From Clostridia bacterium (lineage in GTDB: Bacteria > Bacillota > Clostridia > Oscillospirales > Acutalibacteraceae): a DNA stretch of 56,690 nt. Shown piece after piece: positions 52,183 through 56,690 of the stretch. The first letter of the stretch is position 1; each line of letters opens with the position of its first letter. The notes beneath the pieces were generated by a model, which made no database searches, was not told the DNA's origin, and worked only from the letters and a program-made list of their open reading frames with translations. The DNA lies in contig JAFWZS010000036.1 in the NCBI GenBank assembly GCA_017522205.1, positions 1 to 56,690 on the forward strand, read 5' to 3'. Made by a program: the position numbers and the translations under genes.

Positions 52183-54438
52183 ATGAGACAGATTTTAAAC
52201 TTTAACAGAAAATGGGCTTTCACAAAGCAGGCAAATGAAATTCCTGCAGTGATGCCGACAGATTGGAATTTCGTTAATCTTCCCCATTCCTGGAATGCAA
52301 TTGACGGACAGGACGGAGACAACGATTACTTCCGAGGAACAGCTTACTATGCAAAAGCATTTGCTAAAATGGATCTCCCCACGGCAGAGCAGTACTATCT
52401 TGAAATCAAGGGTGCAAACTCCTCAGCAGATGTTTATCTCAACGGCAAAAAGCTTGCTCACCACGACGGCGGATACTCCACCTGGAGAGTTAACCTTACA
52501 GATGCTCTTGAAAGTATGAACCTGCTTGTTATTTCTGTGGATAACTCAGCCAACGAAACAGTATATCCCCAGATGGCAGACTTCACCTTCTACGGCGGTC
52601 TTTACAGAGATGTAAATCTTATTTGTGTAAATGAAAGCCACTTTGACCTTGATTACTACGGTGCTCCCGGTATTGCAGTTACCCCCACAGTTGAGGGTGA
52701 AAATGCAAAGGTGCATGTTGAAACTTATCTTACAAATGCAAAAGACGGTCAGACCATCCGCTACACAATTTATGATGCAGACGAAAAAGCTATTGATACC
52801 GTTGAAACAAAGAACACCTCTGCTGATTTTGTAATCAATGGCGTTCATCTATGGAACGGCAGAATTGATCCTTATCTTTACTGCTGCGAGGCTGAGCTTA
52901 TTGAAGACGGTAACGTAATTGATAATGTTTGCACACGTTTCGGTTGCCGCAGCTTTGAAATTGACCCTGAAAACGGCTTTATCCTTAACGGCAAGGAATA
53001 CCCGCTTCGTGGCGTTTCACGTCATCAGGACAGATGGGGCTTCGGTAACGCTCTTCTTCCCGAGCATCACGAGGAGGATATGGACCTTATCTGCGAGGTA
53101 GGTGCAACAACAATCAGACTTGCACACTATCAGCACGATCAGTACTTCTATGACCTTTGCGATGAAAAGGGTCTTGTTATCTGGGCTGAAATTCCCTATA
53201 TTTCAAAGCATATGCCTACAGGCAGAGAAAACACGATCTCACAGATGAAGGAGCTTATTTATCAGAATTATAACCATCCTTCAATCGTTGTATGGGGACT
53301 ATCAAATGAAATCAGCATCGGTGGCTCTGATGATGATCTTCTCGAAAACCACAGAATTCTCAACGATCTTTGCCACGAGCTTGACAAAACACGTCTTACA
53401 ACCATTGCAGCAGTTTCTATGTGTAAAATGGACGACCCCTATCTTCAGATTCCTGACGTAGTTTCATATAACCACTACTTCGGCTGGTATGGCGGAGAAA
53501 CCTCAATGAACGGCCCCTGGTTTGACAAATTCCATGAAATGCATCCCTCAATTCCCATAGGCTGCTCCGAATATGGTTGTGAAGCTCTTGACTGGCACAC
53601 ATCTGACCCCAGGCAGGGAGACTATACTGAGGAATATCAGGCTTACTATCACGAAGAGCTTATCAAACAGCTTTTCACAAGAAAATATATGTGGGCAACA
53701 CACGTGTGGAATATGTTCGACTTCGGTGCTGACGCAAGAAATGAAGGCGGCGAAAACGGTCAGAACCACAAGGGTCTTGTAACCTTTGACCGTAAGTATA
53801 AGAAGGATTCCTTCTATGCTTATAAGGCATGGCTTTCAGACGAGCCCTTCGTTCACCTTTGCTCAAAGCGTTATATCGACAGAGCAGAGGACGAAACCGT
53901 AGTTACCGTTTACTCAAATCTCCCCGAGGTTGAGCTTTTTGCAAACGGCGTTTCCGTAGGCAAAAAGACTGCTGAAGACCACTTCTTTAAGTTCACGGTT
54001 AAAAATGAAGGCGAAACCGAGCTTGTTGCTGTAGCAGGCGAGTGTAAGGATAAGAGTGTAATCCGCAAGGTTGACACCTTCAACGAAGCTTACAGACTGG
54101 TTGAAAAGGGTGCAATTCTCAACTGGTTTGATATTGATGCTCCCGAGGGCCGTCTTTCACTTAATGATAAGATGAGCGATATCATCTCCACTCCCGAGGG
54201 ACAGAAGCTCTTTATGGGTATGTTCTCAAAAATGATGGGTGGCAACAAGGACGGCGAAGAGCCGAAAATGGAAGCTATGGGCTTTGAAATCAACGCCGAT
54301 ATGATGAGTATGATGGGAGGCTTCACTGCACTCAGACTCTTTACTCTTATGGGCGGTATGATGGACGTTAAATTCACAAAGGAAGAGCTTTTAGGACTGA
54401 ACGCAATGCTCAATCAGATTGAAGCTCCGAAGAAATAA
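52183..54438 (+). CDS. GH2 beta-glycosidase with Met-rich C-terminal domain
   Basis: A 751-residue cytoplasmic GH2 enzyme with sugar-binding (about 1-150), Ig-like (about 155-255) and TIM-barrel (about 258-560) domains, then an Ig-like domain. The acid/base is Glu376 (WGLSNEIS) and the nucleophile Glu463 (GCSEYGCE). Beta-galactosidase or beta-glucuronidase action are the main options. Residues about 640-751 form an extra helical, Met-rich domain (SKMMGG, ADMMSMMGG, GGMMD) beginning SLNDKMSDIISTPEGQ, which I have not seen as standard in GH2; helical tails of this kind occur on other gut glycosidases. AAAAGGAG precedes the start. It works with the symporter just upstream. Confidence 0.9.
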   Translation: MRQILNFNRKWAFTKQANEIPAVMPTDWNFVNLPHSWNAIDGQDGDNDYFRGTAYYAKAFAKMDLPTAEQYYLEIKGANSSADVYLNGKKLAHHDGGYSTWRVNLTDALESMNLLVISVDNSANETVYPQMADFTFYGGLYRDVNLICVNESHFDLDYYGAPGIAVTPTVEGENAKVHVETYLTNAKDGQTIRYTIYDADEKAIDTVETKNTSADFVINGVHLWNGRIDPYLYCCEAELIEDGNVIDNVCTRFGCRSFEIDPENGFILNGKEYPLRGVSRHQDRWGFGNALLPEHHEEDMDLICEVGATTIRLAHYQHDQYFYDLCDEKGLVIWAEIPYISKHMPTGRENTISQMKELIYQNYNHPSIVVWGLSNEISIGGSDDDLLENHRILNDLCHELDKTRLTTIAAVSMCKMDDPYLQIPDVVSYNHYFGWYGGETSMNGPWFDKFHEMHPSIPIGCSEYGCEALDWHTSDPRQGDYTEEYQAYYHEELIKQLFTRKYMWATHVWNMFDFGADARNEGGENGQNHKGLVTFDRKYKKDSFYAYKAWLSDEPFVHLCSKRYIDRAEDETVVTVYSNLPEVELFANGVSVGKKTAEDHFFKFTVKNEGETELVAVAGECKDKSVIRKVDTFNEAYRLVEKGAILNWFDIDAPEGRLSLNDKMSDIISTPEGQKLFMGMFSKMMGGNKDGEEPKMEAMGFEINADMMSMMGGFTALRLFTLMGGMMDVKFTKEELLGLNAMLNQIEAPKK

Positions 54439-54470
54439 AAAACAGAATCAGTATATTAAAACCAAACAGC

Positions 54471-54534
54471 AAAATGCCCCACCGAGAAAAATCGGTGGGG
54501 CAAATTCATTTATAGATGAATTACTTATTTGCAA
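54471..54534. repeat. Direct repeat, distal copy: duplicated ppdK 3' end and terminator
   Basis: Positions 54493-54534 match 56251-56292 at 41 of 42 bases, beginning CGGTGGGGCAAATTCATTT. The copy includes the last codons of ppdK (ANK and stop on the minus strand) and the terminator hairpin CCCCACCGA/TCGGTGGGG, here at 54477-54500. Only the hairpin loop differs. No ppdK frame continues beyond this copy, so it is a detached 3' end. Confidence 0.85.
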
Positions 54535-54576
54535 GCTCTACGTGAAGGTTAATTTACTTTTGGTTTTCTTATTAAA

Positions 54577-54625
54577 CATAAAAATGACCTCCTTGTATTT
54601 GGTAACACCATTTTACAAGGAGGTC
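54577..54625 (-). terminator. Terminator of the HNH_2 gene
   Basis: GACCTCCTTGTA (54586-54597) pairs with TACAAGGAGGTC (54614-54625), a perfect 12-bp stem; on the minus strand ATTTTTATG follows. Confidence 0.85.
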
Positions 54626-54647
54626 TGTGTTTTGTCGAATGTGTGGA

Positions 54648-56171
54648 TTATCCGTTTTTAAATCTTTTTTGTCTGTGATGCTTAAGATAGCCTTTATTTG
54701 CATCAGTTAAATCAATGACCATATTCTCATTAATTCCAAATGCTTCTCGATCTGCTTCACTAAGTTTGTCTGAAATCATAATTTTTCCGTCATTTTCGAA
54801 AGAAATCAAGCCTGAATCAAATAATTTGTCGTGATTAGGACAAAGCAGAAAACCATTTTCAATGTCGAGTTTTTGATTGGGTTCACTTTCACACCAAGGT
54901 CTAATATGACTTGCTATTAACAAATCAGGGTTGCTCGCAGAACATAAACAACACTTTTTATATCTATCTAATAGTTGTTGCCTGAATTTGCTTTGATTGA
55001 CTCTTGATTTAATGATAAGTTCTTGCTCTTTGCCTTCTAAACCACTATCTAGCAAACCTTTTTCGATAGATTCAATATCATCAAATTTATTCGGATAATC
55101 TTGCTGCAGTGGCTCTTCTGGAAACATAGAATTGTGTGTTTCTTTGCTTTCAATATGTACATCTAAAATATCTAAAAACAAGTCATCACTGAGATTATCG
55201 AATTTCTCATCATCAAAAACATCGAGATGACCTTTTACTCGTTCTCTAAAACTGCTAACACTCATCGTACTATGACATCGATTGAGTTCTTTTGAAATTA
55301 TTGAATGTACTAAACTATTGCGATTATTATCAGCGAAAGCACTTTCTAAAGAGATATTATTTTTTACGAGTTCGTGCTTAATTCTATACATCATTCCACT
55401 TACATAAAAATTTGATGGTGAGAGATTAGATCCTATATACTCCATACTTTTTTCTCTTATTTTAGTATAATACGGATGATGCTTATATGAATCTTTAGCT
55501 TTACTTTCTCTATTTCTGTATTCTGTTTTAAAAACGCTGTCTGTATAAAGTCCTTGTGCATCAACCTCAAAAACCCCAAATCTATTAGCACGTTCTAGTG
55601 TGTTTTTCAATGAAAGCTCTTTTAAATCTTGTGCAAGTTGGTTAGAAACAGTAAGTTTATATGAATCTCCGTTATCATCATGCAAAGTAAGAATATTATT
55701 ATTAATATCAGAAGCCCTTAAATTTTTTATAACACTTAAATTATTATTATAAACACCTTCATAAATACATCTAAATAATGCAGAAAAGTATAATGTATTG
55801 AGTTCTTCGTGGTGACTAATACAATACAATAGATTTTGGTATTCCGCATAGGAAATATATTTTTTCTTTGCATTTGGTTTTGCTGCTTGCCACAGGATTT
55901 TTTCATCTATACTATTAATGGTATCGTATAATTCGTTTGTGCTAACGATGTTATTAACAAATAACCATTTTGCATACATCCTAAGAATATAACAGATAGT
56001 CGTAATATCTCTTGGACTGTTTGGTTTTAAGTTTAGAATGAATTGTTCAAATTTTGTAATGTCAAAATCAATTATATCTTCATTGAAGTTTTTAAAAACA
56101 CTTTTAACAACTTTAGCTGAATTATGACTTTGCAATTCTATCGCTTTGATAAAAGCTTCTATATTACTCAT
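54648..56171 (-). CDS. HNH_2 endonuclease with integrase-like N-terminal region
   Basis: A 507-residue protein. The C-terminal nuclease (about 395-460) is of HNH_2 type: Cys407/Cys410, ASHIRPW (His422), DIENGFLLCPNHDKLFD (Asn439, Cys444, His447). Residues about 15-90 look like the helical core-binding domain of tyrosine recombinases, and 105-190 (ISYAEYQNLLYCIS to SVIKNLRASDINNN and KLTVSNQLAQDL) resemble the start of their catalytic domain, but Tyr/Asn stand where box I Arg is expected, and no HxxR or Tyr site is clear. Very A+T-rich, and flanked by direct repeats. It is thus probably a mobile or defence gene; the integrase reading is by eye. Confidence 0.72.
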   Translation of the reverse strand: MSNIEAFIKAIELQSHNSAKVVKSVFKNFNEDIIDFDITKFEQFILNLKPNSPRDITTICYILRMYAKWLFVNNIVSTNELYDTINSIDEKILWQAAKPNAKKKYISYAEYQNLLYCISHHEELNTLYFSALFRCIYEGVYNNNLSVIKNLRASDINNNILTLHDDNGDSYKLTVSNQLAQDLKELSLKNTLERANRFGVFEVDAQGLYTDSVFKTEYRNRESKAKDSYKHHPYYTKIREKSMEYIGSNLSPSNFYVSGMMYRIKHELVKNNISLESAFADNNRNSLVHSIISKELNRCHSTMSVSSFRERVKGHLDVFDDEKFDNLSDDLFLDILDVHIESKETHNSMFPEEPLQQDYPNKFDDIESIEKGLLDSGLEGKEQELIIKSRVNQSKFRQQLLDRYKKCCLCSASNPDLLIASHIRPWCESEPNQKLDIENGFLLCPNHDKLFDSGLISFENDGKIMISDKLSEADREAFGINENMVIDLTDANKGYLKHHRQKRFKNG

Positions 56172-56231
56172 TTCTTCACATCCTTTTACATTATTCTACC
56201 ACGTTTTAACGATATTCTCAACCTACAAACA

Positions 56232-56262
56232 AAAATCCCCACCGATTTCTCGGTGGGGCAAA
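56232..56262 (-). terminator. Terminator of ppdK
   Basis: CCCCACCGA/TCGGTGGGG hairpin (56237-56259) followed on the minus strand by ATTTTTG. It belongs to the proximal copy of the direct repeat. Confidence 0.88.
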
Positions 56263-56292
56263 TTCATTTGTAGATGAATTACTTATTTGCAA
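56251..56292. repeat. Direct repeat, proximal copy, at the intact ppdK 3' end
   Basis: The 42 bases match 54493-54534 with one mismatch (G56270 against A54512). It spans the last codons and stop of ppdK and one arm of its terminator. The 1.76 kb between matching points holds the HNH_2 gene only. Confidence 0.85.
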
Positions 56293-56690
56293 TTGCTGCC
56301 TGAGCTGCAGCAAGTCTTGCGATGGGCACACGGAAGGGTGAGCATGATACATAGTCGAGGCCAATCTTGTGGCAGAACTCAACTGATGAGGGGTCACCGC
56401 CGTGTTCACCGCAGATACCGCAGTGGAGCTTAGCGTTAACGGGCTTACCAAGCTTGATGGACATTTCCATAAGCTTACCAACACCTGTCTGGTCGAGCTT
56501 AGCAAAGGGATCGTTTTCGAAGATCTTTGCATCGTAGTAAGCATCGAGGAACTTACCGGCGTCGTCACGGCTGAAGCCGAATGTCATCTGAGTAAGGTCG
56601 TTTGTACCGAAGCAGAAGAAGTCAGCTTCCTTAGCGATCTCATCAGCTGTGAGACATGCTCTGGGAATTTCGATCATTGTACCAACTTCA
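56279..56690 (-). CDS. ppdK: Pyruvate, phosphate dikinase, C-terminal part (runs off the window)
   Basis: The last 136 or so residues of PPDK, which interconverts pyruvate, ATP and phosphate with PEP, AMP and pyrophosphate. The 5' end lies beyond the right edge. The PEP-site motif [16 protein letters not shown] with its catalytic Cys, [11 protein letters not shown], and the end [18 protein letters not shown] are intact. The residues just before MIEIPRA continue in frame (EVGT), so the methionine at 56677 is internal. Together with pyk it allows pyrophosphate-linked glycolysis or PEP supply, as is common in anaerobes. Confidence 0.96.

Follow-up and report, generated by a model that had tools for sequence, protein, structure and literature searches.

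The window analysed here, a stretch of 56,690 nucleotides of Clostridia DNA, is the entire contig (C31) of an assembly that is 73.67% complete, and one end of this contig falls inside ppdK. Read along the minus strand, the truncated ppdK is followed by a terminator-like hairpin, a promoter-like site and a single long gene, which together with that hairpin and site is bracketed by two copies of the ppdK 3' end, with a GH2 gene on the distal side of the distal copy (Table 1). The ppdK and GH2 labels come from an earlier note on this DNA, made from its letters, together with our reading of the translations; labels assigned by eye are those of aroQ, the tyrosine recombinases P0001 and L244:6452-7729 and the serine recombinase in L280, and the terms 'prophage-like' (G007) and 'lipoprotein-like' (G006). 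The long gene differs in composition from its surroundings, with a GC content of 30.1% compared with 42.5% in positions 1-54470, and a GC3 of 0.21 against 0.46 (positions 52183-54438) and 0.53 (ppdK part). In the interval from ppdK to the GH2 gene, just two other open reading frames reach 60 aa; one has 80 aa and the second, with 116 aa, overlaps ppdK. The promoter-like site is a match to consensus of a quality reached 15 times in positions 54400-56400, compared with 10.0 +/- 3.1 times in shuffled sequences.

Table 1 Features at the ppdK end of the window, in minus-strand order.
Feature	Position	Strand	Remark
ppdK 3' part, ends ..AQAAIANK*	56279..56689	-	Cut by contig end; label from earlier note/by eye
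Proximal ppdK 3'-end repeat (last codons, stop, 3' UTR, terminator arm)	56251..56292	-	
ppdK terminator-like hairpin, T-rich tail	56237..56258	-	
Promoter-like site upstream of nuclease gene, TTGAGA-17-TAGAAT	56193..56221	-	10/12; TG ahead of second hexamer; consensus match only
MrpR-like/HNH_2 fusion gene	54648..56171	-	507 aa
MrpR-like domain coding region	55137..56171	-	Residues 1-345; MrpR homology shown for 27-273
HNH nuclease coding region	54657..55049	-	Residues 375-505; H422, N439, D448, D452
Small gene X, first 13 codons (MFNKKTKSKLTFT*)	54538..54579	-	Truncated at distal junction
Distal ppdK 3'-end repeat	54493..54534	-	Without CACAGGC core
Distal terminator-like hairpin	54475..54502	.	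Found on both strands

The earlier note had described one A+T-rich gene between 42-bp direct repeats of the ppdK 3' end, and both parts of that description stand: the gene has 507 codons, and our recount of the repeats, both on the minus strand, again gave 41 of 42 identical bases. At 89% identity the match can be prolonged to 54492-54545/56250-56303. Within the window, blastn recovered the pair at E ~9e-17, and a chance origin can be excluded, the longest exact repeat in positions 53500-56690 being 22 nt long as compared with a maximum of 17 nt in 500 first-order Markov sequences. Common to both copies are the last three ppdK codons (A-N-K), the stop, ~20 nt of 3' UTR and one arm of the terminator hairpin, past which the two hairpins diverge. 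The unit shares with integrative elements these att-like direct repeats at a site used by mobile DNA, though the distal copy lacks the CACAGGC core found at other ppdK insertions.

Simple tandem duplication is an unlikely source of the repeat, because the distal copy comes directly after the first 13 codons of a small gene, which we call gene X and of which three other genomes (G005, G007 and G011) have a longer version, located downstream of ppdK. Positions 54559-54643 are 98% identical to G005, whose copy of gene X had no match in Pfam or NCBIfam. Gene X (MFNKKTKLKLTDFECNLLINGMNEFRNML...; window 54538-54643, L086:6050, L244:5881-6087) recurs near mobile DNA, and the gene-X-like ORF elsewhere in the window's own genome (L244:5881-6087) adjoins a gene judged by eye to encode a tyrosine recombinase (L244:6452-7729).

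The C-terminal part of the 507-aa protein was assigned to HNH_2 in the earlier note, and this assignment is sound: residues 407-459 match PF13391 at E 2.6e-12, and residues 375-505 match VcaM4I (PDB 6yex) at E 7.3e-20. A PADLOC HNH model matched at E 7.2e-28, the best PADLOC stretches falling within residues 377-506 and model PDLC03529 giving a second stretch. All four active-site positions of the HNH_2/VcaM4I type (H, N, D and D) are kept, with H422, N439, D448 and D452 aligning to H224, N241, D250 and D254 of VcaM4I. They are invariant in 52 of 52 aligned proteins (alignment A7), which comprise the window protein, two proteins from phage or plasmid records and 49 of 64 viral ORFs, the remaining 15, mostly look-alikes or cut ones, having been kept out by choice; MrpR_N_CB was found in one of the 52, that of the window. 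In the full-length model (mean pLDDT 62.4, pTM 0.33), residues 391-500 have block pLDDT values of 88-96, whereas the other residues and the way the parts are arranged are modelled with low confidence.

The HNH part is also like that of the phosphorothioate-DNA restriction enzymes of NCBIfam NF045808, which we take to be of the ScoMcrA type, at E 1e-10 and a score of 41.3 of 180 bits that leaves the window protein far under the family cut-off; our scans of the window protein showed no SBD or SRA domain. More generally, the Pfam and NCBIfam scans reported no known modification-sensing domain (EVE, SRA, YTH, SBD, wH) with the nuclease, and residues 1-345 showed none of the known modification readers. 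The C-terminal domain is likely to be a nuclease of the HNH_2 type whose closest match is the modification-dependent restriction enzyme VcaM4I. According to the available part of PMC7897488, the latter is an EVE-HNH modification-dependent restriction endonuclease; like the window protein it has a C-terminal HNH domain with the same active-site residues and unites a (in the window protein, putative) reader with a nuclease in a single chain, whereas its reader is an EVE domain, of the PUA superfamily, in place of the MrpR-like recombinase fold of the window protein.

At the N-terminus, residues 22-276 match PHROG 5830 (integrase) at E 8.1e-13. The Pfam scan of the window protein gave MrpR_N_CB at E 3.5e-4, under the Pfam cut-off, and did not report MrpR_C_cat. 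Homology to both the core-binding and the catalytic-like domain of the MrpR family was found by profile comparison, in which hhalign scored an alignment of the window protein and its relative from G077 (see below) at 98.4% against an MrpR alignment (E 8.2e-15, 233 columns, residues 27-273). The same profile scored 1.3% against one tyrosine recombinase of a relative, a contrast that carries little weight, since MrpR itself scores 0.13% against that recombinase. In tblastn, residues 29-263 matched four SPbeta-type phages at 25% identity, and the one match checked, a protein of SPbetaL4, has both Pfam MrpR domains (MrpR_C_cat at 1.9e-145). Residues 1-358 were modelled with AlphaFold at modest confidence (mean pLDDT 66.3, pTM 0.58), giving helices through the first 150 residues and a mixture of helices and beta strands after them, which would be compatible with a core-binding domain followed by a catalytic-like one. 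It is from the sequence profiles that we assign the recombinase fold, and by the same measure the N-terminal part is homologous to MrpR, with a tyrosine-recombinase fold predicted to act without recombination.

MrpR (YopR), the master repressor of SPbeta (PDB 8A0A), is the homologue of residues 27-273, and recombinase catalysis has been lost in both proteins. As the available text of PMC10516654 describes it, MrpR, whose solved structure has the fold of a tyrosine recombinase, acts as a stand-alone repressor, gave no recombination when assayed in vitro and keeps three of the seven catalytic residues, whereas the window protein, aligned to the MrpR positions in Table 3 of that paper, keeps none of the seven and carries a nuclease. 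For the set tested (R, D/E, K, H, R, H/W, Y), the window residues are V140/Y141, V147, N167, S253, Y256/V257, V305 and V318; a second alignment, with R311 in the Tyr column and a gap in the H/W column, still gives 0/7. The full catalytic set of an active tyrosine recombinase is thus missing, and the loss of the box I Arg from a recombinase-like N-terminus, which had been noticed before, turns out to be part of a wider one.

Seven of 147 genomes, the window's own included, matched the window protein, and the N-terminal domain was matched, besides the own genome, only in G077. With an N-domain relative in one of 146 other genomes, the outcome that had been named as speaking against an insertion, namely that all relatives carry the same arrangement, is not what is found. 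G077 belongs to the same family as the window genome, and its relative, of 455 aa, is ~43-44% identical in the N-domain (44% over residues 3-335) and ends in a different HNH (PF01844, E 1.2e-6), for which the best PDB match, a weak one, is 6ghc (EcoKMcrA; E 0.061). The G077 gene adjoins aroQ, not ppdK, and lacks flanking repeats of the window's kind. A search with PHROG 5830 matched 52 of 398 genomes of the phylum, own included; besides our own we examined G525, the best match, and G225. The G525 protein (L250:901-2409; 502 aa) combines MrpR_N_CB, above the Pfam cut-off, with NOV_C (5.4e-13), presumably a PD-(D/E)XK-type nuclease domain, and scored 97.8% against the MrpR profile in hhalign; its N-domain gives no plain BLAST alignment with that of the window protein (E 0.91). 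Since a serine recombinase gene (by eye) lies 3.4 kb away and genes for an HTH protein and an M78 peptidase are near, the G525 fusion gene is probably part of a mobile element.

Three MrpR-like proteins thus bear three different nuclease-type ends, HNH_2 in the window, a PF01844 HNH in G077 and NOV_C in G525, and because of this the MrpR-like domain looks like a shuffled recognition module; the failure of the window and G525 N-domains to align in plain BLAST speaks against this view. Such fusions are rare: the two besides the window's came one from the 146 relatives and one from the few examined matches of the 398-genome search. When those 398 genomes were searched with the window protein, 24 besides our own matched, all from residue 352 on only, and an order-level profile search found two of 394 genomes, the own one and G787, the latter by a weak 39-residue match with stops. 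Relatives of the G525 protein were present in two of 248 genomes including G525, the other one in the nuclease part only. An alignment scan of genome contigs gave one locus, judged to be that of G077, and a one-sequence scan of them no match. No viral contig was found that encodes a relative of the whole protein or of its parts, and in a profile search of the 64 viral ORFs and the ORFs of 32 other loci, an MrpR-like N-terminus was seen in L002 alone (next best E 0.013 and 0.11).

We then consider the ppdK 3' end itself. A search of 59 genomes, the own one among them, recovered the gene in 40, and the sequence downstream of it, read in 29 of the 39 others (for less than 500 bases in 7 of these), is highly variable; behind ppdK, 11 of the 29 have a short coding tail whose stop is preceded by a D-[IL]-[TE] motif. 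In G007, ppdK is followed by a prophage-like stretch, at the far end of which, ~31 kb after ppdK, a large serine recombinase gene (L233:12239-14050; Resolvase 2.9e-31, Recombinase 1e-23) continues directly into another copy of the ppdK 3' end. With this recombinase as query, six copies were found in 5 of 34 genus genomes; judged by eye, four of them run into ppdK 3'-end copies, one runs into an altered core and one is cut by a contig end. Phage contigs L245-L248, which to judge from their 3' ends represent two distinct sequences, carry the recombinase gene uninterrupted, with a similar tail and with a CACAGGC ppdK-like core within its own 3' end, while the gene of L249 runs into a ppdK-like end. 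Because the genes of L245-L248 are intact and contain the core, and those of G007 and L249 run into ppdK ends, ppdK-type large serine recombinases appear to carry attP within their own gene, integration leaving the tail beside ppdK. Integration would also swap the C-terminal tail of the recombinase, which could act as a directionality or expression switch.

In the accessible portion of PMC11005914, conjugative transposons of Bacteroidota use the corresponding ppdK codons as their attB. PvCTn and its relatives resemble the window in these codons, in imperfect direct repeats and in the restored stop, and differ from it in being conjugative and having integrases, where the window unit has one gene and no recombinase. 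Because large serine recombinase genes of the same genus lead into copies of the ppdK 3' end, and because an attB in ppdK has been published, the proposal that the ppdK 3' end is a hotspot for mobile DNA in the genus is supported. Other cargo, which the note had recommended looking for, was also seen. G023 has a GmrSD_N type IV restriction gene (L090:2947-3324), cut by the contig end, ~0.3 kb behind ppdK, and G006 (L235; C31:17500-20934) has a ~1-kb unit with the window's layout, in which one long lipoprotein-like gene lies between ppdK-tail repeats and no recombinase was seen.

Taken together, these analyses favour, with a probability of roughly 0.62, a solitary, modular, type IV-like endonuclease of restriction type with an MrpR-like reader, carried as cargo at the ppdK hotspot in what would be a recombinase-less remnant. 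Of the options raised before, the one kept is a defence gene in a hotspot, given an HNH of restriction-enzyme type and the use of the hotspot, with a putative role in defence. The N-terminal MrpR-like domain, a recombinase fold without recombination, would recognise the target DNA, which the HNH domain would cut, probably as a dimer like VcaM4I. Because there is no adjoining methyltransferase gene, the enzyme would most likely be type IV-like (modification-dependent), or its target would be confined to invading DNA. The gene, with its own promoter-like site, would be cargo in a variable region behind ppdK that large-serine-recombinase elements appear to use repeatedly. The restriction-type reading draws on the HNH subtype, the kept active site, the module swaps, the mobile context and the lack of an adjoining partner gene; counting against it are the lack of a known modification reader in the protein, the rarity of the fusion and the modest N-domain model.

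The 1.76-kb unit would on the preferred reading have arisen by insertion and a later deletion with its junction inside gene X, a history suggested because the distal repeat lacks the core and gene X is truncated. The distal junction may accordingly mark a deletion inside gene X after insertion at ppdK; an assembly fault at this junction may be another source of the distal repeat. A recombinase of its own is absent from the unit, and no relative of the G007 recombinase was found in the own genome, which is 73.67% complete, with the query that matches 5 genus genomes. An empty site with both flanks, for which a search had been proposed, was not found: in the 13 loci where the 420 bases behind GH2 were read, among 24 genomes with a GH2 match, no ppdK end lies within that distance.

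The best-surviving alternative, which we regard as improbable though well ahead of those that follow, is that the unit is no dead remnant but a cassette that, though not autonomous, is mobilised in trans by a large serine recombinase specific for ppdK. The similar one-gene unit of G006 and the ppdK-type recombinase relatives in 5 of 34 genus genomes speak for such movement; the incomplete own genome yielded no ppdK-type recombinase, however, the distal copy is without the core, and the truncated gene X better fits a deletion. It is quite unlikely that the protein descends from a phage repressor and acts as a regulator, its HNH domain being inactive or of secondary importance: MrpR is itself a repressor (PMC10516654, available text), but all four HNH active-site positions are kept and MrpR-like N-domains occur with three different nuclease-type domains. 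It is more improbable still that a single protein integrates the unit at ppdK, as a minimal integrative element. Direct repeats that restore the ppdK 3' end, a recombinase-like N-terminus (PHROG 5830) and a real insertion site would be in keeping with self-integration, but the protein keeps none of the seven catalytic residues, the related MrpR failed to recombine in vitro, the nearest relative (G077) is not at ppdK and the distal copy lacks CACAGGC; the recombinases that reach ppdK 3' copies are separate, large serine ones. A homing-type nuclease spreading by cutting ppdK 3' ends, to which the HNH domain and the location at a conserved gene end might point, has an equally slight chance, since the one close relative found adjoins aroQ, the HNH is of restriction-enzyme type and homing is not expected to give long flanking repeats. 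On this evidence the plain repressor was rejected, along with the self-integrating element and the homing unit that the earlier note had entertained.

A bolder version of the nuclease reading, which we hold only tentatively, is that dead MrpR-like domains have been recruited as target readers of modular nucleases (HNH_2, McrA-like HNH, NOV_C), so that the enzyme, needing no methyltransferase, would cleave phage DNA where the phage's repressor or integrase binds. Operator repeats or attachment sites of phages, the natural ligands of such a fold, would then be its target, and a phage repressor would have been turned into a phage-specific nuclease. HNH-type restriction enzymes occur with several reader domains, and one descended from a phage repressor or recombinase would direct nuclease activity in a new way. 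The nuclease and the fold are each known, and their combination appears to be new as far as the literature surveyed goes: no MrpR-like/HNH fusion is described in the titles and abstract openings among the matches listed, subscription papers and preprints lying outside this coverage, and a single paper was found on MrpR with tyrosine recombinase. If its reader has this origin, the fusion would supply a DNA-reading domain for further study and a candidate for a defence gene that acts alone, and would allow one to test whether phages are countered with regulatory proteins of their own.

The ppdK hotspot is likewise a place in these bacteria in which to seek further cargo genes. On one contig (G031:C13), where a recombinase runs into a ppdK copy, a further ppdK-tail copy with a terminator (L234:6053-6132) is located ~3.7 kb past that recombinase; the insertions here may be nested or in tandem.
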